NCBI RefSeq assembly: GCF_900475755.1
Contig: NZ_LS483411.1
Coordinates: 1,674,001 to 1,738,000, forward strand
Reading direction: 5' to 3'
DNA from: Haemophilus influenzae
Lineage (GTDB): Bacteria > Pseudomonadota > Gammaproteobacteria > Enterobacterales > Pasteurellaceae
Length of the DNA stretch: 64,000 nt
The notes under the pieces were generated by a model. That model did no database searches and had not been told where the DNA came from. It was given only the letters and a program-made list of their open reading frames with translations. Made by a program: the position numbers and the translations under genes. Positions 8,505 to 19,417 of this stretch are shown piece after piece; within the stretch, counting starts at the first letter, position 1, and each line of letters opens with the position of its first letter.

Positions 8505-9986
8505 TTAGTATAATTGTGATAAATGTTTTAAATAACGCTCGTAAGCACTTTGATAATTTTTCACCTGTGATAAGTTAGGATAAGTTTTGGAGTTTTCATC
8601 TAAGTGAATGAAGGTGTCGCATAAAAATTCAAGTTCTCCTTCTCCATTTGCCCACATAGCTTGAATTGCTCCTCCTAATGCAGCAGCTTCTTCTTCCTGC
8701 AAACATACCACTTCGGTATTCATTACATCAGCAATCATTTGTCGCCAAAATAAGCTTTTCGCACCACCTCCAATTAGGCGAATTTGTGAGGTTTTGAGAC
8801 CAGCTTGACGAAATAAATCTAAACCATAGCGAAGCGTAAAAGTGGCACTTTCCATCATTGCTCGACAAAGATTTTCTCGTGTGAAATTACTTGAATCTAA
8901 TCCTAAAATGCTCGCTTTTGTATTGGGTAAAGGTGGAACTCTTTCACCATTAAAGAATGGTAAAATAGTGATGCCATTCGCGCCGATAGGTGCTTGTTGA
9001 GCAAGTTGATTTAATTCTTCAATATCAATATTTAGCAAATTCATTAGCTGTTTATTTGAGGAGGTTATATTCATCACACAAACTAGTGGTAACCAGCCAT
9101 TATTACTTGAACAAAAATTTGCGATCATTGGTGGTAAATTAAGTAATGGCTTTTGCGTATAAGCATACAAGGTACCAGAAGTACCGAGACTCATCGTAGC
9201 AATCCCTTCTCGAATATTTCCTGTACCAATTGCTCCCATCATATTATCGCCTCCACCTGTGGAGACGATGACATTATCATTAAAACCAAATAAAGTCGCA
9301 ATTTCAGGTTTAATCACACCGATTTTTTGTTCGGCAGAAAGTAATTTAGGTAACACTTCATCCATATTTAATTCTGGCGCAAGATATTTGAAGACTTCTC
9401 TTTTCCATTCTCTTTTCACAACATCGAAATAACCACTACCAGAAGCATCACCAAATTCAGTGCAGAATTTTCCTGTTAGCCAATAATTTAGATAATCGTG
9501 TGGCAGCATAATTTTGCGAATATTGGCAAATTTATCAGGATAATTTTGACGAAACCAACTCAGTTTTGAAGCCGTATAACCAGTTTGGCAAATGATACCT
9601 AATTTTTCAAATGCGGCCGTTTGTCCGCCTAATTTTTCGATCAGTATATCATTTTCCGTAGCGGTTTCTGTATCACACCAAAGCTTAGCCTTGTATAGAG
9701 GACGATCGTTTTTATCTAACATTACCAGTCCATGTTGTTGTCCTGAAATGCCTATTCCCTTCACTAAATTAGGTGAAAAGTGCGGTGAATTTTTTGCTTG
9801 TTTTAATGCAATTTGTAATGCTTGTTGTAATGCTTCAATCCACCAATTTGGTTGTTGTTCACGTCTTCCATTGGATTGTGTAATTAATTCATGTTTTGCG
9901 TAACCAGCTCCAATCACTTTTTTTTGGACAGAATCAAGCACTATCGCCTTTGTTCCTTGTGTGCCACAATCAATTCCTATATACAT
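8505..9986 (-). CDS. xylB: Xylulokinase
   Basis: Phosphorylates D-xylulose to xylulose 5-phosphate, the second step of xylose use. FGGY-family kinase with the N-terminal phosphate loop DCGTQGTK (residues 6-13), the GISGQQHG motif, and the C-terminal GGGAKSLFWRQ nucleotide loop. An 18-codon in-frame extension to 10040 exists, but the ATG at 9986 has a strong AGGAG ribosome site and starts exactly where the family does (MYIGIDCG), so it is chosen; 493 residues. Downstream of xylA with an uptake-signal hairpin between them. Confidence 0.95.
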   Translation of the reverse strand: MYIGIDCGTQGTKAIVLDSVQKKVIGAGYAKHELITQSNGRREQQPNWWIEALQQALQIALKQAKNSPHFSPNLVKGIGISGQQHGLVMLDKNDRPLYKAKLWCDTETATENDILIEKLGGQTAAFEKLGIICQTGYTASKLSWFRQNYPDKFANIRKIMLPHDYLNYWLTGKFCTEFGDASGSGYFDVVKREWKREVFKYLAPELNMDEVLPKLLSAEQKIGVIKPEIATLFGFNDNVIVSTGGGDNMMGAIGTGNIREGIATMSLGTSGTLYAYTQKPLLNLPPMIANFCSSNNGWLPLVCVMNITSSNKQLMNLLNIDIEELNQLAQQAPIGANGITILPFFNGERVPPLPNTKASILGLDSSNFTRENLCRAMMESATFTLRYGLDLFRQAGLKTSQIRLIGGGAKSLFWRQMIADVMNTEVVCLQEEEAAALGGAIQAMWANGEGELEFLCDTFIHLDENSKTYPNLSQVKNYQSAYERYLKHLSQLY

Positions 9987-10003
9987 AATGTCTCCTAAAA
10001 TAA

Positions 10004-10034
10004 AAAAGTGCGGTGAAATACAACCGCACTTTTG
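10004..10034. repeat. Inverted uptake-signal pair between xylA and xylB
   Basis: Uptake signals at 10006-10014 and 10023-10031 face each other and can form a 9-base stem in the xylA-xylB message. Because the genes share one direction, it may lower or stabilise part of the transcript rather than end it. Confidence 0.75.
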
Positions 10035-10042
10035 CTTCATTT

Positions 10043-11362
10043 TTAGCTATAAATAACTTGGTTTACCAAATTTTCCAAATATTCTTGCTGACCTGAAACT
10101 GGTTTTGGCGCTAAATCTTTTTGTTGGACTAGTTGTGCAAGTGTTTCAAGTGAAGTTTTGCCTTGCAAAATATGCTGGCCAAGTTCACTATTCCAACCTG
10201 CATAGCGTTCATTAACAATTTTTTGTAAGGTTTCCTCTTGTAACATTTTTGCTGCACGTTTTAAGGATAATGCCAATACATCAATTGCACCGATATGAGC
10301 GTAAAATAAATCATAAGGATCAATACTTTGTCGGCGAATTTTCGCATCAAAATTAAAACCTCCAGTAGTAAAACCACCATGTTTTAAAATTTCATACATA
10401 ACCAACGTGTTTTCTTCAACACTATTTGGGAATTGGTCGGTATCCCAGCCTAATTGTGGATCGCCACGATTAGCATCAATTGAGCCAAAAATATCTAATG
10501 CACAAGCTGTTGCAATTTCATGTTGAAAGGTATGACCAGCAAGCGTCGCGTGGTTAGCTTCAATATTAACTTTAATTTCTTTTTCTAAACCAAATTGTTT
10601 TAGGAAACCATACACTGTTGCCACATCATAATCATATTGATGTTTAGTTGGTTCTTGCGGTTTTGGCTCGATTAATAATGTACCTTTAAACCCAATTTTA
10701 TGCTTATGTTCTACCACCATTTGCATAAAACGACCAATTTGTTCACGTTCACGTTTCAAATCGGTATTCAATAAAGTTTCATATCCCTCACGTCCACCCC
10801 ATAATACGTAATTTTCTCCACCTAAACGTTGAGTAGCATTCATTGCATTAAACACTTGTGTTGCAGCCCAAGCAAAAACCTCAGGATTAGGATTGGTTGC
10901 TGCACCAGACATATAACGAGGATTAGTAAAACAATTTGCAGTTCCCCATAAGAGTTGTATACCCGTTTCTACTTGTTTGCGTTCTAAAATATCAACAATA
11001 TGATGAAAATTTTGTACATATTCCCGCACTGAATTACCTTCAGGTGCAATATCGACATCATGAAAACAATAATAAGGTACGCCTAACTTATTCAAAAACT
11101 CAAAAGCAATATCGGCTTTTTGTTCTGCACCAGCAAGCAAATTTAGATTTTTCTGCCAACTTCGTTCCAAAGAACCTAGCCCAAACATATCATTCCCATT
11201 CCAGCAAAAGGTATGCCAATAACACACAGCTAAGCGTAAATGTTCAGCCATAGTTTTACCTAAAATTACTTGATTAGCATCATAATGTTTAAAAGCAAAA
11301 GGATTTGTGGATTTTTCTCCCTCAAAGGAGATTTTTTCAATTTTATCGAAATAGGTTGTCAT
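10043..11362 (-). CDS. xylA: Xylose isomerase
   Basis: Converts D-xylose to D-xylulose in the cytoplasm. The catalytic pair H101/D104 is seen in [11 protein letters not shown], and the metal ligands are in [18 protein letters not shown] and GSIDANRGD. 439 residues is the length of the E. coli type (class II) enzyme. An AGAGGAAAA ribosome site precedes the ATG. Transcribed away from xylF from a shared control region with a CRP site. Confidence 0.96.
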
Positions 11363-11374
11363 AACATTTTCCTC

Positions 11375-11499
11375 TCTAGATGATGAAGTTTTTCGTATTT
11401 TTGTGAAAAACTAGCTTTTCATCAATTATGTTATTTAATTTTTCTATGTTGATTATTTACAACTGTGGAGTGGATCACAGTTGTGAAAAAACGTAATAA
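11375..11499. promoter_or_regulatory. Divergent xylA/xylF control region, copy 1 of a duplicated block
   Basis: Lies in the 233-base gap between xylA and xylF. It contains a GATGAA ... TTCATC inverted repeat (11382-11423) with inner GTTTTTC/GAAAAAC arms, a GATTATTTACAA segment, and a CRP site at 11461-11482. A diverged copy of the whole block occurs at 15363-15485. By analogy with the E. coli xyl locus, XylR is expected to bind here; the exact operator cannot be read from sequence alone. A TATAAT at 11513-11518 is a candidate -10 for xylF. Confidence 0.8.
11461..11482. promoter_or_regulatory. CRP-cAMP site of the xylA/xylF promoters
   Basis: AACTGTG and CACAGTT are perfectly inverted around an 8-base centre (GAGTGGAT), matching the TGTGA-N6-TCACA consensus at nine of ten core bases. 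It predicts catabolite control of xylose use. Confidence 0.88.
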
Positions 11500-11595
11500 T
11501 GGAGAAAGATTTTATAATTGAAAGCCTTTTTTAAAGTGTGAAAACTAACAACTGGAGCAATAACTAGTCCTTCACTTAACTATTGAGGTATCAAT

Positions 11596-12594
11596 ATGAA
11601 AATCAAATCAGCTTTACTTACCCTTGTTGGTGCATTAACTGTATTTAGTAGTTCTGCCCATTCCAAAGATCTTAAAATTGGTTTATCCATTGATGATTTA
11701 CGTTTAGAAAGATGGCAAAAAGATCGAGATATTTTCGTAAACAAAGCAGAATCAATGGGTGCAAAAGTATTTGTCCAATCTGCGAATGGTGATGATTCAG
11801 CACAAATTTCTCAAATCGAAAATATGATCAATAAAAATATTGATGTATTAGTAATTATTCCTCATAACGGTGAAGTATTAAGTAACGTTATTTCTGAAGC
11901 TAAAAAGGAAGGAATAAAAGTATTAGCGTATGACCGTTTAATCAATAATGCAGATTTAGATTTTTATGTTTCCTTTGATAATGAAAAAGTGGGTGAACTA
12001 CAAGCTAAAAGTATTGTGGCTGTAAAACCAGAAGGTAATTATTTTTTAATGGGGGGATCTCCTGTAGATAATAATGCAAAATTATTTAGAAAAGGGCAAA
12101 TGAAAGTATTAGATCCTTTAATTGCCAGTGGGAAAATTAAGGTTGTAGGAGATCAATGGGTTGATTCTTGGTTAGCTGAAAAAGCGTTACAAATTATGGA
12201 AAACGCATTAACAGCTAATAAAAATAATGTGGATGCTGTTGTTGCATCTAACGATGCTACTGCTGGAGGTGCGATTCAAGCCCTTAGCGCACAAGGCTTA
12301 TCTGGGAAAGTCACAATTTCTGGGCAAGATGCAGATTTAGCTGCAATTAAACGTATTGTCAATGGCTCGCAAACTATGACTGTTTATAAACCAATTACGA
12401 AACTTGCAGATAAAGCGGCAGAAATTGCGGTTGAATTAAGTAAGAATGAAAAAGTAGAAGCTAATGCAGAACTGAATAATGGCTTAAAAAATGTTCCTGC
12501 GTATTTACTTGATCCTATCGCTGTTGATAAACGTAATATTAATGAAACTGTAATTAAAGATGGTTTTCATACTAAGGAAAGTATTTATCACTAA
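11596..12594 (+). CDS. xylF: Periplasmic D-xylose-binding protein
   Basis: Solute-binding component of the XylFGH ABC importer. The signal peptide (about 1-23, cleaved after SSAHS) is followed by the LacI/ribose-type fold: [33 protein letters not shown], and [16 protein letters not shown]. 332 residues matches XylF. GAGG ribosome site before the ATG at 11596. First gene of the rightward xyl operon. A perfect hairpin separates it from xylG. Confidence 0.95.
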
Positions 12595-12602
12595 CTTTAA
12601 GA

Positions 12603-12622
12603 GGGAAGAGAAAACTCTTCCC
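12603..12622 (+). other. Hairpin between xylF and xylG
   Basis: GGGAAGAG, four A, then CTCTTCCC form a perfect 8-base stem right after the xylF stop, with no T tail. Such hairpins behind binding-protein genes commonly protect the upstream message and give higher XylF than XylGH levels; that role is inferred. Confidence 0.7.
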
Positions 12623-12644
12623 TTACCTCTTAGGGAGTTACGAT

Positions 12645-14156
12645 ATGGCATTGTTGGAAATGAAACATATCACAAAAAAATTTGGTGATGTGACCGCACT
12701 TCATAATATATCTATTGAATTAGAAGCAGGGGAAATTTTATCTTTATGTGGTGAAAATGGATCTGGAAAATCTACATTAATGAAAATACTTTGCGGTATT
12801 TATCCTTGTGGAGATTACAGCGGTGATATTTACTTTTCTGAAAGTGAACTAAAAGCAAGGAATATTAGAGATACTGAAGAAAAAGGCATTTCAATTATTC
12901 ATCAAGAACTTACTCTCGTAAAGAATATGTCTGTATTGGAGAATATTTTTTTGGGTAATGAAATAACTCATAAAGGTTTGACAGCAGATAATGAAATGTA
13001 CTTACGTTGCAAAAATTTATTACAGCAGGTGCAATTAGATGTTGATCCCAATACACGAGTAGGAGAATTAGGTTTAGGGCAACAGCAATTAGTTGAAATA
13101 GCTAAGGCCTTAAATAAACAAGTAAGACTTCTTGTCTTAGATGAACCAACGGCTTCACTTACCGAAAAAGAAACGGAAATTTTATTAAATCTTATTAAGG
13201 ATCTTAAAGCACACAATATCGCTTGTATCTATATTTCCCATAAACTCAATGAAGTTAAGGCGATATCTGACAAAATTTGCGTCATTCGTGATGGTGAACA
13301 TGTTGGAACGAAAGACGCTTCAACAATGACAGAAGATGACATTATCACCATGATGGTAGGTCGGGAAATTACCTCACTTTATCCACATGAACCTCATGAA
13401 ATCAAAGATGAAATTTTACGAGTAGAAAATCTTTCTGCTTGGCATCCAATCAATGCACATATTAAGCGTGTTGATAACGTAAGTTTTAGTCTTCATGAGG
13501 GGGAAATTTTAGGTGTTGCAGGTTTAGTTGGTTCAGGTCGTACAGACATGGTGCAATGCTTATTTGGGTCTTATGAAGGTAAGTTTGAAGGAAATATTTT
13601 TATCAATCAAAAACAAGTAAATATCAAAAATTGTGCCCAAGCGATTGAACATAAAATTGTGATGGTTCCTGAAGATCGGAAGAAACACGGCATTGTTTCT
13701 ATTATGGGAGTTGGCAAAAATATTACGCTTTCTTCTTTGAAATCTTATTGTTTCGGAAAAATGGTAGTTAATGAAGCAAAAGAAGAGCAGATAATTGGTT
13801 CAGCCATAAAACAACTAAAGGTGAAAACTTTTTCACCAGATTTGCCAATAGGACGACTTAGTGGCGGTAATCAACAGAAAGCGATCCTAGCAAAATGTTT
13901 ATTGTTAAATCCTAAAATACTGATTTTAGATGAACCAACAAGAGGAATTGATGTTGGTGCAAAATATGAAATTTATAAGTTAATTAACCAATTAGCCCAA
14001 GAAGGGATTGCGATTATTGTCATTTCATCAGAACTACCAGAAGTTTTAGGCATTAGTGATAGAGTTCTTGTTATGCACCAAGGTAAACTTAAAGCTAGTC
14101 TTATCAATACTGCTCTTACTCAAGAACAAGTTATGGAAACAGCACTTAAGGAGTAA
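12645..14156 (+). CDS. xylG: D-xylose ABC transporter ATPase
   Basis: Double-cassette sugar ATPase energising xylose import. The first nucleotide domain has Walker A GENGSGKS (about 36-43), signature [15 protein letters not shown] and Walker [12 protein letters not shown]; the second has the degenerate GLVGSGRTD loop, signature [13 protein letters not shown] and [13 protein letters not shown], as in RbsA/XylG. 503 residues. GGGAG ribosome site. The last uptake signal before a 6.8 kb gap is at 12693 inside this gene. Confidence 0.95.
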
Positions 14157-14159
14157 TCT

Positions 14160-15287
14160 ATGTTTAAGTTAAAATCCGTAAATTTACAAGTTTACATTAT
14201 GTTAATAGCTATTGCCGTCATTATGGCATTCTTTAGTGTTGCTACTGATGGCGCTTATTTAAGTGCAAGAAATATTTCTAACTTGTTACGCCAAACTTCA
14301 ATTACTGGCATTCTTGCAATTGGAATGGTTTTTGTCATTATTTCTGCTGAAATTGACTTATCTGTTGGTTCACTTATGGGCCTACTGGGCGGATTTGCAG
14401 CTATTGCCGATGTTTGGTGGGGCTTCCCATTACCTGTAACTATTATTGCAACAATTGCTCTTGGTTTAATTTTTGGTATTTGGAATGGTTGGTGGGTGGC
14501 TTATCGCAAAGTGCCATCCTTTATTGTTACACTTGCAGGTTATCTCGCATTCCGTGGAATTTTGATTGGTTTGACTAATGGCACAACTGTATCTCCTATT
14601 AGTGGATCTATGACAGTTATTGGACAAGGTTATTTATCAGATATTGCAGGGTTTATCTTAGGTGGTATTGTAGTTATTGGATTTGTTCTTTGGGGAAATT
14701 ATCAACGTAGAAGTCGCCAGCAGCTTCAGCTGGAAGTGTCTGCATTATCAAAAGATTTTACGAAATATGCTTTGTTTGCAGTAATTGTATTAGGAGCAAT
14801 TTATTTACTTAATGATTATCGTGGCATTCCATTTCCTGTTTTAGTACTGGCAGTTCTTGCAATCTTAGGGTTATTCCTCTCTCGTAAAACTTCATTCGGC
14901 CGCCACGTTTATGCGATTGGTGGCAATATTGATGCGGCAAAATTATCTGGTATCAATGTAGAGAAAACAAAACTGATTATCTTTGCAATGAATGGTGTGT
15001 TAGTTGCAATAGCAGGGTTGATTTTAAGTGCTCGTTTAGGTGCAGGCTCACCATCGGCAGGGCAAAATGCAGAACTAGATGCGATTGCAGCTTGTGTAAT
15101 TGGAGGGGCGAGCTTAGCGGGTGGTGTAGGAAGTGTGTTTGGGGTTGTTATTGGCGCACTTATCATCGCATCGCTTGATAATGGTATGAGTATGCTTGAT
15201 GTGCCAACTTTTTGGCAATATATTGTCAAAGGTGCCATTTTGTTACTTGCTGTATGGATAGATACTAGTAATAAGAAAAAGATGTAA
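14160..15287 (+). CDS. xylH: D-xylose ABC transporter permease
   Basis: Inner-membrane permease of the XylFGH importer, 375 residues with about ten hydrophobic segments. The RbsC-like [15 protein letters not shown] motif and the loop [14 protein letters not shown] are clear, as is the [14 protein letters not shown] segment. AAGGAG ribosome site overlaps the xylG end; spacing is 3 bases. A rho-independent terminator follows. Confidence 0.95.
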
Positions 15288-15298
15288 TTATTAATTTT

Positions 15299-15328
15299 AA
15301 ACCGTCATTTATAAAATGGCGGTTTTTT
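15299..15328 (+). terminator. Terminator of xylFGH
   Basis: AACCGTCATTT pairs with AAATGGCGGTT (one G-T pair), followed by six T. It separates xylFGH from the malY-like gene, so that gene needs its own promoter. Confidence 0.85.
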
Positions 15329-15362
15329 AATTTTATAGAAATGGTTACCTAACATACTGCTT

Positions 15363-15485
15363 TCTAGATGATGAAGTTTTTCATCTTTTTATGAAAAAAC
15401 AAGTTCTTATCCGTTACATTATTTAATTTTTTATAGTGATTATTTACAATTGTGGACTAGATCACAATTGTGAAAAAACGTAATA
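15363..15485 (+). promoter_or_regulatory. Second copy of the xyl control region, upstream of malY-nhaC
   Basis: Aligns with 11375-11499 over its whole length, with roughly four bases in five identical. Shared blocks include TCTAGATGATGAAGTTTTTC at the left, ATTATTTAATTTTT in the middle, GATTATTTACAA, and TGTGAAAAAACGTAATA at the right. It also keeps a full CRP site. It is placed 77-199 bases before the malY-like start, matching the place of copy 1 before xylF, so it is probably the promoter region of the malY-nhaC pair. Confidence 0.85.
15448..15469. promoter_or_regulatory. CRP-cAMP site upstream of malY-nhaC
   Basis: AATTGTG and CACAATT are perfectly inverted around GACTAGAT. Compared with the xylF copy, the one arm change (C to T) is balanced by the matching change in the other arm (G to A), so the dyad is kept. 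Confidence 0.85.
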
Positions 15486-15561
15486 GATAAAGTAGTTTTA
15501 GTAATTTTAATTCTTTTCTTCTTTGACTAAAGTAAATTTGCCTTATACATCAGGAGGAATA

Positions 15562-16734
15562 ATGAATAATCTTTATAATTTTGATGTGATTATTGATCGC
15601 CTAAATACATTTAGTGCTAAATGGAATGTAGATAATGATATTATTCCAATGTCTGTTGCGGATATGGATATTCCAGCACCTCAATTAATGATAGATGAAT
15701 TAGAAAAATTTAATCGTTTAGGAATTTATGGTTATACTGAATTACCAGCCGATTATTACGAGATAATCAGTGATTATATTTTCGAACAATATCATTATTC
15801 TGTTCTCTCTGAAAAAATTGTATTTTGCCCAAGAATAATCCAAGCTGTATCTATTTATATACGAGCATTTACAAAAGAAACTGATGGAATATGCATTCTT
15901 TCACCTTCATATAGTCCAATATTAAACACGATAAAATTAAATGAAAGAAAATTATATAAATGCCCTTTGGTTTATGAGAATAGAAAATATCATATTGATT
16001 TTAATTTATTAGAGGAATGTTTTGAACATTCTAAAGTATTTGTTTTAATTTCTCCTCATAATCCAACTGGAACGATTTGGAACAAAGAAGTCCTTATTAA
16101 AATTATAAACTTAGCTAAAAAACATAATGTATTTATCATTTCCGATGATGTCCACGCAGACTTTACGCTAACAAATGAATCCCACTATCTAATATCATCA
16201 TTAGATGAATGGGTAGCAAATCACTCAATGATTTGTTTATCCCCAGCAAAAACTTTTAATATTCCTGGATTGGAAATAGCTAACCTAATTATTGAGAATA
16301 AAGAAATTCGAGAAAAATTTATAAAAGAAATGATGGCATTAGGTATACATAATCCAAATTATTTCTCTATACCAGCTATTGTTTCGTTATATAAATATTG
16401 TACTGACTGGATAATCTATCTAAAAGAATACATAAAGAATAATAAGAAGATAGTAAAAAAATTTTTCAATGAGTATATTCCATTATTAGATATTACTGAA
16501 AGTGATGGAACTTATTTACTTTGGATAAACTATAAAAAGCTAAGTATAAATGAAAATGAATTAGCTTATTGGATTAATAATTTATCAAGAGTAAAAGTAT
16601 CTTTGGGTAGTGAATTTGGAAAAGAGGGAGACGGTTTCTTTCGTATGAATGTCGCTATGCCTAGAGAAAAATTATTAGAAGCATTGAATCGAATCAAAAA
16701 TGGGTTTTGTTTATTAAACAATAGGGAGATTTAA
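15562..16734 (+). CDS. MalY/PatB-family PLP-dependent C-S lyase (aminotransferase fold)
   Basis: Predicted pyridoxal-phosphate enzyme, probably a cystathionine beta-lyase or related carbon-sulfur lyase. It starts like MalY (FDVIIDRLNTFSAKW, then MSVADMDIPAP), has SPHNPTGTIW, the cofactor aspartate in ISDDVHADF, and the PLP lysine in SPAKTFNIPG. An upstream in-frame ATG at 15523 is rejected because the ATG at 15562 has an AGGAGG site 5 bases away; 390 residues. The gene is visibly more AT-rich than its neighbours. It is separated from nhaC by one base. Substrate is not provable from sequence. Confidence 0.82.
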   Translation: MNNLYNFDVIIDRLNTFSAKWNVDNDIIPMSVADMDIPAPQLMIDELEKFNRLGIYGYTELPADYYEIISDYIFEQYHYSVLSEKIVFCPRIIQAVSIYIRAFTKETDGICILSPSYSPILNTIKLNERKLYKCPLVYENRKYHIDFNLLEECFEHSKVFVLISPHNPTGTIWNKEVLIKIINLAKKHNVFIISDDVHADFTLTNESHYLISSLDEWVANHSMICLSPAKTFNIPGLEIANLIIENKEIREKFIKEMMALGIHNPNYFSIPAIVSLYKYCTDWIIYLKEYIKNNKKIVKKFFNEYIPLLDITESDGTYLLWINYKKLSINENELAYWINNLSRVKVSLGSEFGKEGDGFFRMNVAMPREKLLEALNRIKNGFCLLNNREI

Positions 16735-16735
16735 T

Positions 16736-18142
16736 ATGAAAACCACTCATCGCACAAGAATGCCAACAACATTAGAAGCTTTTTCACCAATCATTGTGAT
16801 GCTATTACTGTTAGGGCTTGGGTATGCTTTATTTGATTTGCCAGCAGAGCCATTAATGATTATTTCAACGGTATTTGCTGGTTTTTTAGTTATTAAATTA
16901 GGTCATTGCTATTTAGATATTTTAAACGCCATTTCAGAAAAAATAGCTAAAACAATGCCTGCGCTATTAATTTTAATTACTGTAGGATTATTAATTGGAA
17001 CTTGGATTAGTGGAGGAACAATTCCTATGATGATCTACTACGGATTAAAAGCGATATCACCAGAATATCTTTATGTGACAGCCTTATTCCTTACTGCTAT
17101 TGTTTCCATTTGTACTGGAACCTCTTGGGGGTCAGCAGGGACTGTTGGTGTGGCATTTATGGGAGTTGCGATTGGATTAGACGCCAATTTGGCTGCTACG
17201 GCAGGTGCTGTGGTCGCTGGTGCGTATTTTGGAGATAAATTATCGCCATTATCTGATACAACCAATATTGCATCCGCAGCTGCTGGCGTAGATTTATATG
17301 AGCATATCGCTCACTTACTTTATACAACATTACCATCCTTTATTCTTTCGGCTACTGTCTATGTGGTATATGGTTTAAACTACGATTTTTCTAATGTGGC
17401 GACTCCAGAAAAAGTAAATACAATGATTCATGAGTTAGAGCAAGTTTATCATTTTAACTTTCTATTACTTATTCCAGTCGCTATTGTATTATGGGGATCT
17501 ATTACTAAGAAACCGACTATTCCAGTGATGTTATTATCAGCATTTATCGCAATTATTAATGCTATCTTAATTCAAAAATTCTCTCTATCTGATGTGATTA
17601 ATAGCGCAGTTAATGGATTTGATACCTCAATGATTCACCATACTTCAGTTAGCTCTGATTTAAGTCGTTTGTTGAATCGTGGTGGAATGAACTCAATGAT
17701 GGGAACACTATTAATTTGTTTCTGTGCATTATCATTTGCAGGTGTATTACAATTGAGCGGTGCATTAACCGTGATTATTCAAAAATTACTCACCTTTGTT
17801 CATTCAACTCTTTCTTTGATTATTACAACGATTCTTTGCGGTTTAACAATGATTGGGGTTACTTGTAATGGGCAAATTTCTATTCTAATTCCAGGAGAAA
17901 TGCTTAAAGATGCGTATGTAGAAAAAGGATTACATCCAAAAAATCTAAGTCGAACAGCAGAAGATTCCGCAACAATTATTGAACCTATTTTGCCATGGAC
18001 TGCCGCAGGTGCATATATGGCAGGCACATTAGGTGTTGCAACATTGTCTTATTTACCTTGGGCAATTTTATGTTGGAGCGGTATTATCTTTGCTATCATT
18101 TATGGTGCAAGTGGAATAGGTATTGCGAAGCTAAAAAAATAA
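16736..18142 (+). CDS. nhaC: NhaC-family Na+/H+ antiporter or sodium-coupled exchanger
   Basis: Integral membrane protein of 468 residues with about 11-12 hydrophobic segments, matching the NhaC family: GTSWGSAGTVGVAF, GAYFGDKLSPLSDTTNIA and the late CNGQISILIPGEML segments are characteristic. The family includes Na+/H+ antiporters, malate/lactate exchangers and methionine transporters. Its tight linkage with a C-S lyase gene makes a sulfur amino acid or organic anion a possible substrate, but this is inference. AGGGAG ribosome site overlaps the end of the upstream gene. Confidence 0.85.
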   Translation: MKTTHRTRMPTTLEAFSPIIVMLLLLGLGYALFDLPAEPLMIISTVFAGFLVIKLGHCYLDILNAISEKIAKTMPALLILITVGLLIGTWISGGTIPMMIYYGLKAISPEYLYVTALFLTAIVSICTGTSWGSAGTVGVAFMGVAIGLDANLAATAGAVVAGAYFGDKLSPLSDTTNIASAAAGVDLYEHIAHLLYTTLPSFILSATVYVVYGLNYDFSNVATPEKVNTMIHELEQVYHFNFLLLIPVAIVLWGSITKKPTIPVMLLSAFIAIINAILIQKFSLSDVINSAVNGFDTSMIHHTSVSSDLSRLLNRGGMNSMMGTLLICFCALSFAGVLQLSGALTVIIQKLLTFVHSTLSLIITTILCGLTMIGVTCNGQISILIPGEMLKDAYVEKGLHPKNLSRTAEDSATIIEPILPWTAAGAYMAGTLGVATLSYLPWAILCWSGIIFAIIYGASGIGIAKLKK

Positions 18143-18163
18143 ATGTGGTATTGGATATAAAAA

Positions 18164-18188
18164 TGGCCAGTTATTCTGGCTATTTTTA
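18164..18188 (+). terminator. Short terminator after nhaC
   Basis: GCCAG, TTATT, CTGGC is followed by TATTTTTAT. The stem is only five base pairs (18166-18180), so it may be partial and let some transcript reach xylR. Confidence 0.5.
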
Positions 18189-18253
18189 TCTTGAAGCTAA
18201 ATATCTTTTCTATTATAACTTAAATAGCAATTTCCCATAGATAAGGATATAAA

Positions 18254-19417
18254 ATGACGGAACAATACTACAAAATTGCCCTCTTATTTAATGCAAACAA
18301 AGTATATGATCGGCAGGTGGTGGAGGGTATTGGACAATATATTCAGGCATCGCAATGTATGTGGGATATTTTTGTAGAAGATGAATTTATCTATCATACT
18401 GATACCATTAATCAACTTTCTATTGATGGCATTATTGCAGACTTTGATGATCCAAAAACTGTTGAATTATTGCAACACGCTCTTATTCCTACTATAGCAG
18501 TTGGTGGATCTTATAAACAGGCTGATTTTTATCCGCACTTTCCTTATGTAGCAACAGATAATATGATATTGGTTGAAATGGCTTTATCTCATTTACAGGA
18601 GAAAGGACTGTCACAGTTTGCATTTTATGGTTTGCAAGTAAATACTCATAAGCATTGGTCTATAGAACGAAGAGATGCTTTTGTAGAGTTGATGGAGAAA
18701 AATCATTACCCTATTTACCTATATGAGGGTGTGCAGGTTCATGCTCAAAATTGGTTGGAAGAGCAACAAAAGCTAATTGTCTGGTTAAAATCTCTTCCTT
18801 CTCATACTGGTATTATTGCTGTTACGGATGCGCGTGCTCGTCATTTATTGCAGGCTTGTGAGTACAGTAAAATTGCTGTACCTGAAGAGCTTTGTGTGGT
18901 TGGTATTGATAATGAAGAATTGATCCAATATTTATCGCGTGTGTCCCTTTCCTCCGTAGAACAAGGCACGAGAGAGATTGGTTATCAAGCTGCGAAATTA
19001 TTACACAAATTACTCAATGGTCAAAAAGTTTCACATACCCCTATTTTAATTCCACCGATTACCGTTCACTCTCGAAATTCTACAGATTATCGATCATTAA
19101 CAGATCCGCTTGTCATTCAAGCAATGCATTATATTCGTCATCGTGCCTGTCATCGAATTAAAGTAGAACAAGTTTTAGATCATCTTGAAACCTCACGTTC
19201 TAATCTTGAACAACGTTTTAAGAATGAAATGAATAAAACAATTCACCAAGTCATCCACGAAGAAAAAATTTCCCGAGCAAAGAATTTATTACAACAAACA
19301 GATATTTCTATTCAAGAAATTGCTGAGATTTGCGGCTATCCATCCATTCAATATTTTTATTCTGTTTTTAAGAAAGAATTTGAAATGACTCCTAAAGAGT
19401 TTCGACTAAATTGTTAA
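18254..19417 (+). CDS. xylR: Xylose operon regulator XylR
   Basis: Xylose-responsive activator of 387 residues. The N-terminal part (about 1-285) is a LacI/periplasmic-binding-like sensor (YKIALLFNANKVYDRQVVEGI, VVGIDNEELIQYLSRVSLSSVEQGTREIGYQAA); the C-terminal 100 residues are an AraC-type double helix-turn-helix (HRIKVEQVLDHLETSRSNLEQRFK ... is the first helix pair, ISIQEIAEICGYPSIQYFYSVFKKEF the second). It would bind xyl control regions at 11375 and, if functional, 15363. In E. coli it follows xylH directly; here malY-nhaC separates them. Confidence 0.93.
   Translation: MTEQYYKIALLFNANKVYDRQVVEGIGQYIQASQCMWDIFVEDEFIYHTDTINQLSIDGIIADFDDPKTVELLQHALIPTIAVGGSYKQADFYPHFPYVATDNMILVEMALSHLQEKGLSQFAFYGLQVNTHKHWSIERRDAFVELMEKNHYPIYLYEGVQVHAQNWLEEQQKLIVWLKSLPSHTGIIAVTDARARHLLQACEYSKIAVPEELCVVGIDNEELIQYLSRVSLSSVEQGTREIGYQAAKLLHKLLNGQKVSHTPILIPPITVHSRNSTDYRSLTDPLVIQAMHYIRHRACHRIKVEQVLDHLETSRSNLEQRFKNEMNKTIHQVIHEEKISRAKNLLQQTDISIQEIAEICGYPSIQYFYSVFKKEFEMTPKEFRLNC

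Follow-up and report, generated by a model that had tools for sequence, protein, structure and literature searches.

Why should genes for a C–S lyase and a sodium exchanger, as the initial annotation described them, lie within a xylose locus and directly downstream of what appears to be a second xyl control region? In the window examined here, a 64,000 bp stretch of Haemophilus influenzae DNA, the genes that we take to be xylB and xylA (8505..11362, minus strand) were recognized from their ORFs and conserved order, with relatives of xylA named by NCBIfam. They are separated by the xylA-xylF intergenic control region (copy 1; 11363..11595, no strand assigned; ORFs, sequence and alignment) from xylFGH (11596..15287, plus strand), in which xylF exceeds the cut-offs of TIGR02634 and PRK10355, and xylG and xylH are named from place and conserved order. 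The second control region (copy 2; 15350..15517, plus strand), located by alignment and whole-genome search, precedes a malY-like gene for a PatB family PLP lyase (15562..16734, plus strand; TIGR04350, 350.4 bits, cut-off 340), whose ATG has AGGAGG upstream at 15552-15557, and an nhaC-like transporter gene (16736..18142, plus strand; TIGR00931, 748.7 bits, cut-off 370). Beyond these is xylR (18254..19417, plus strand; Pfam PBP1_XylR and HTH_AraC), the regulator gene that a XylR/CRP-controlled promoter calls for. The nhaC-xylR gap includes a hairpin (18157..18190, plus strand; fold of 18155-18200, -17 kcal/mol, z -5.27) that the plus-strand terminator scan did not list.

The initial annotation held that the block between xylA and xylF recurs upstream of malY with roughly 80% identity. 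Pairwise alignment of 11375-11499 with 15363-15485 bears this out (83.2% identity, 104/125 columns) and reveals that the repeat is longer than was recognized, extending over 11362-11530 and 15350-15517 with 78.8% identity (134/170). We also picked up the two copies independently of that annotation. Their local alignment score is 105, against 24 for the best of 1098 control stretches of the window. When copy 2 was used to query the whole genome, it returned itself (E 1.2e-90) and copy 1 (E 1.9e-33), and no third good copy was found genome-wide, the next match having E 0.006 over 41 bases. Identity in the core (47/53) does not differ significantly from that in the left part (68/87; p 0.17), and this comparison within a single pair was dropped as a test of selection.

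Comparison of the two copies revealed which elements have been retained. Copy 1 includes a XylR-type box facing xylA, TCAATTATGTTATTT (11422..11436, minus strand; family consensus TCAATTAYGTTATTT), a CRP-type dyad (11461..11482, no strand assigned; motif only) and an outward XylR-type box, GAAAAAACGTAAT (11485..11497, plus strand), placed by family and pairwise alignment. In copy 2, the outward box is intact (GAAAAAACGTAAT at 15472..15484, plus strand; box comparison and alignment), has no mismatch to AAAAAACGTAAT and faces malY. Adjoining it is a CRP-type dyad, AATTGTGGACTAGATCACAATT (15448..15469, no strand assigned; motif only), that reads TGTGG-N6-TCACA with the general CRP consensus as yardstick, and a probable, weaker second XylR half-site follows at 15494..15507 (plus strand), in the position of the conserved ATtT.atAATTg. 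The xylA-facing box has decayed (15410..15424, minus strand; 3 mismatches) and there is no xylA beyond it, so copy 2, which appears to have lost this box and kept the CRP site and outward box, would act one way and not divergently.

The xylA-xylF region of Escherichia coli is built similarly, with a left box made up of the same 15 letters as the xylA-facing box of copy 1, a matching right box, AAAAATCGTAAT, whose second repeat ends TGTAATTG, and a CRP-type site between them. However, the right box in E. coli is far from the CRP-type site, while in Pasteurellaceae the two are adjacent and form a compact unit. PMC7567609 reports two XylR sites each for the E. coli xylA and xylF promoters, and the Pasteurellaceae-type boxes probably correspond to these. 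No second promoter unit was seen in the xylF-xylB part of the E. coli locus.

The initial annotation treated the duplicated promoter as singular, which it is not. We examined 140 Pasteurellaceae genomes and mapped the loci of all 77 that carry xylA. A profile made from xylA-side regions (76 regions, 64 distinct; E<=2e-3, outward strand, 1.24 Mb) detected one CRP/XylR-type promoter unit in the xylA-side intergenic region of every one of them (77/77) and a further unit in 30/77 (30 units in 30 genomes). The further units lie before xylF (11), malY (7), an MFS sugar transporter gene (6), a GPH transporter gene (5) and a GH43-like gene (1; 33% identity), and thus all 30 head an uptake or hydrolase module, though one of those associated with xylF is 850 nt away, in the broken-up locus of G022. 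Matches on the reverse strand at E<=2e-3 numbered four, all on sites already found, and the best E values were 3.1 in reversed and 3.3 in shuffled loci. A search of an open-access literature collection, by titles and abstract openings, found neither a duplicated xyl promoter nor malY-nhaC under XylR.

The two boxes have fared differently in the further units. Mismatches in the xylA-facing box rise from 0.78 in xylA-side units to 4.43 in further units (background 6.65), whereas those in the outward box are 0.47 and 0.50 (background 5.52), a retention that is partly built in, as the outward box belongs to the profile that found the units. For this reason we also made a profile-free count. A promoter unit is present at 28/32 internal module starts, and 26/32 have a box with no more than one mismatch no further than 260 nt away, compared with 113/5000 random windows (true units included) and 3/86 other gene starts. 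The four internal modules where the unit is missing, malY in G071, G072 and G139 and the MFS gene in G036, begin 26–103 nt behind the preceding gene. Wherever malY adjoins xylA a unit precedes it (16/16 genomes), and in Histophilus somni (G120, L196), where malY-nhaC-xylR is detached from xylBA-xylFGH, the unit ahead of malY is weak (E 0.002).

As the outward box is kept and the xylA-facing box mostly lost in further units, the most likely role of copy 2 is that of a promoter working in one direction. The claim that it drives malY-nhaC, as a prediction, thus stands largely as first made, given the units found before modules, the retained box and the place of malY-nhaC in the xyl locus. Alternatively, copy 2 might be a dead relic, in which case malY-nhaC would be transcribed by read-through out of xylFGH or under some unrelated promoter. 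Copy 2 has indeed partly decayed, in its left box and, in G111 and G119, in the outward box; its likeness to copy 1 has been partly refreshed by gene conversion (see below); and malY manages behind xylH with no unit of its own in G071, G072 and G139. However, a predicted intrinsic terminator in the xylH-copy 2 gap (15299..15325, plus strand; fold -12.8 kcal/mol, z -4.45) would separate copy 2 and malY-nhaC from xylFGH, the loss is asymmetric, affecting only the box that faces xylA, and the unit is present in all 16 xylA-adjacent cases and, weakly, in the detached H. somni locus. We therefore consider a relic very unlikely. In our reading, which we hold with considerable confidence, copy 2 is a one-way XylR/CRP-type promoter serving malY-nhaC, set in a modular slot whose repeats recombine; the motifs suggest that XylR and CRP bind it and that xylose would induce the pair.

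One argument offered for this promoter has to be given up. The dyad letters, AACTGTG/CACAGTT in copy 1 and AATTGTG/CACAATT in copy 2, are exactly as the initial annotation quoted them, and it took them for paired changes preserved by selection. Both copies were found in six Haemophilus-group loci (G000, G007, G009, G111, G114 and G119), this genome included. Copy 1 has AACTGTG/CACAGTT in all six. The copy 2 form seen here occurs in this genome alone; in four of the five others (G007, G111, G114 and G119) the copy 2 dyad is unpaired, AATTGTG/CACAGTT, and in G009 it has the copy 1 form, which rules out the paired changes as evidence of selection. As outgroup-like loci already have AATTGTG/CACAATT, as does the single-promoter relative G113, and the copy 2 dyads are mostly unpaired, it is more likely that copy 2 here kept the older form than that it gained compensating changes. 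Separately, the copy 2 outward boxes of G111 (L151) and G119 (L150) share a C-to-A change.

The stretch between xylA and xylR appears to be a modular slot in which nearly every module brings its own xyl promoter unit. It holds xylFGH, malY-nhaC, an MFS sugar transporter gene or a GPH transporter gene with one for a GH43 protein, singly or combined. In 80 loci, a total that takes in three detached pieces from G120 and G022, the arrangements were xylF alone (39), malY then xylF (9), malY alone (7, including one detached and one broken locus), xylF then malY with (6) or without (3) a unit, xylF then MFS (6), xylF then GPH (5), MFS alone (2), malY then MFS (1), GPH alone (1) and no module (1). In multi-operon sugar regulons several transport modules likewise share one regulator's site. 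Unlike those, the Pasteurellaceae modules are in one locus and in interchangeable order, and their duplicated units are homologous joints; the repeated unit marks interchangeable xylose modules. In G018 (L027:13228-16638), a second unit within the xyl locus is followed by a GPH transporter gene and one for a GH43 xylosidase. The xyl genes of G022 (L193, L217 and L218) are scattered, with a stop in xylA, fragments of malY and nhaC, and xylF elsewhere.

A diverged remnant of the 5' coding end of xylA (about the first 35 nt; 15309..15346, minus strand) lies at the left edge of copy 2 and overlaps the tail of the predicted terminator. It scores 19, against 14.5 for the best match anywhere else in the 64 kb (127,761 windows, both strands). 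Retention of this scrap suggests that copy 2 descends from a boundary where malY was directly divergent from xylA.

Copies 1 and 2 form direct repeats around xylFGH that recombine, by gene conversion, and can delete the genes between them. In H. influenzae HI-5290 (G009, L041), copy 1 letters make up much of the left part of copy 2, some of them private to that strain's own copy 1, and this pattern marks the part as a product of gene conversion. H. quentini (G003, L042) and G004 have no xylFGH and a single control region. This region is chimeric, copy-1-like through the outward box and copy-2-like beyond it, as recombination between the copies predicts. G004 groups with G009 in malY-nhaC (99.6) and xylR (96), and malY-nhaC rejects a clade of G003 and G004 (p-AU 1.07e-5). 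The simplest story would be two separate deletions of xylFGH between the repeats, in G003 and in G004. Since xylBA does not reject the clade (p-AU 0.188), one loss followed by recombination could also account for them.

Conversely, the single region of G003 and G004 might be ancestral, with xylFGH inserted later together with a second control region. That model also predicts chimeric single regions, and it fits both the xylA scrap in copy 2, with malY formerly adjoining xylA, and the xylA-malY order that is common in other Pasteurellaceae genera. However, G004 shares copy 1 private letters and its flanks with the two-copy G009, the likeness being 99.2–99.9% in xylBA, malY-nhaC and xylR, and loss is therefore the shorter story, at least in G004. 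We judge an ancestral single region unlikely. Loss by recombination between the repeats would be a simple route for removing genes from the slot.

The malY-like protein shares TIGR04350 with the PatB/MalY C–S lyases (cystalysin, PatB and MalY structures) and its solved relatives include cysteine-S-conjugate beta-lyases; unlike the known lyases, its gene is tied genomically to xylose genes. The nhaC-like protein belongs by its TIGR00931 match to the NhaC antiporter family, whose name predicts sodium/proton exchange for it. Its next NCBIfam match, below cut-off, is ArcD, and a structure search returned no solved relative. Some NhaC-type proteins are amino-acid transporters. Unlike in the NhaC family at large, nhaC adjoins malY in every Pasteurellaceae locus with both flanks seen. 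The families named in the initial annotation therefore hold, but the distribution of the pair suggests xylose acquisition and not a generic lyase and sodium exchanger.

Of the 140 Pasteurellaceae genomes, 77 have xylA, 68 have xylF, and in 26 we found this locus's NhaC (at least 68% identity; two of the 26 partial or split). All 26 with this NhaC carry xylA, compared with 51 of the 114 others (p 1.9e-8, with no correction for kinship), and NhaC was found in 0/63 genomes that lack xylA. Nine xylA-bearing genomes have no xylF. In five (G003, G004, G102, G130 and G131), the xyl locus has no uptake-like module besides malY-nhaC, and no XylE-like MFS transporter was found genome-wide; the others have MFS (G034 and G100), malY-nhaC with MFS (G036) or GPH-GH43 (G015). 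The pair is commoner in genomes without xylF (6/9) than in those with it (20/68; p 0.054). Outside the family, malY-nhaC adjoins xylA or xylB in some Actinomycetota and Bacillota. One or both genes were near the pair in 9/25 Actinomycetaceae loci, within the stretch fetched, and also in Scopulibacillus, Anaerococcus, Helcobacillus and Zophobihabitans, and NCBIfam confirmed the xylose isomerase in two non-Pasteurellaceae loci (L065 and L084). A C–S lyase and an NhaC-type carrier are thus tied to xylose use in three phyla.

The same survey also bears on the rival view that the pair, which would encode an ordinary lyase acting on sulfur amino acids and an ordinary Na+/H+ antiporter, entered the locus as a passenger and came under xylose control only incidentally. 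The best family names, PatB C–S lyase and NhaC, say as much, and in many Paenibacillus and Actinomyces loci, with no xylA nearby, the pair is found with a YheO-like regulator. Among Actinomycetaceae, class I xylA is present in 18/25 genomes with NhaC and 56/175 without (p 2.3e-4). The remaining 7/25 lack it, although in one of these a class II xylA adjoins the pair, and malY-nhaC can therefore work without class I xylA. Against this explanation stand the 26/26 association in Pasteurellaceae, the linkage in nine Actinomycetaceae loci and four further genera, and a tree of NhaC (105 rows) on which xyl linkage needs 9 changes, 7 of them forced by well-supported branches. Its chance of being right falls a little short of even.

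The distribution suggests instead that malY-nhaC is a candidate xylose-acquisition module. A carrier and a beta-lyase occupy a slot that otherwise holds a carrier and a xylosidase, which suggests that the pair frees xylose from a conjugate with an amino acid; on this view, malY-nhaC and the GPH-GH43 module would be counterparts, with malY-nhaC as the amino-acid version. By analogy, the NhaC-type carrier might import amino-acid-linked xylose, such as the O-xylosyl-serine of proteoglycan linkers. The MalY-type PLP lyase might then beta-eliminate this conjugate to xylose, pyruvate and ammonia, supplying XylA and XylB. We offer this route tentatively, as a speculation with the balance against it. 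Bacterial use of xylosyl-serine did not appear in the open-access collection by titles and abstract openings. If true, the route would explain why mucosal bacteria that lack XylFGH nevertheless benefit from xylAB, and it suggests for familiar protein families of these bacteria a new class of substrates that can be tested.

Three loci outside Pasteurellaceae (L055, L068 and L077; Paenibacillus and Actinomyces) have malY-nhaC directly adjoining the gene for the YheO-like PAS/HTH_22 regulator. In the genus of the window, the whole xyl locus is either present or absent at the rfaD-rfaF site. It is absent from 5/10 genomes (L270, L271, L272, L275 and L276, in G008, G002, G005, G006 and G001, respectively), where the rfaD-rfaF gap is 88 bp. 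Two small ORFs in the xylR-xylH gap at L028:3755-4497 resemble a PIN-type toxin-antitoxin pair.
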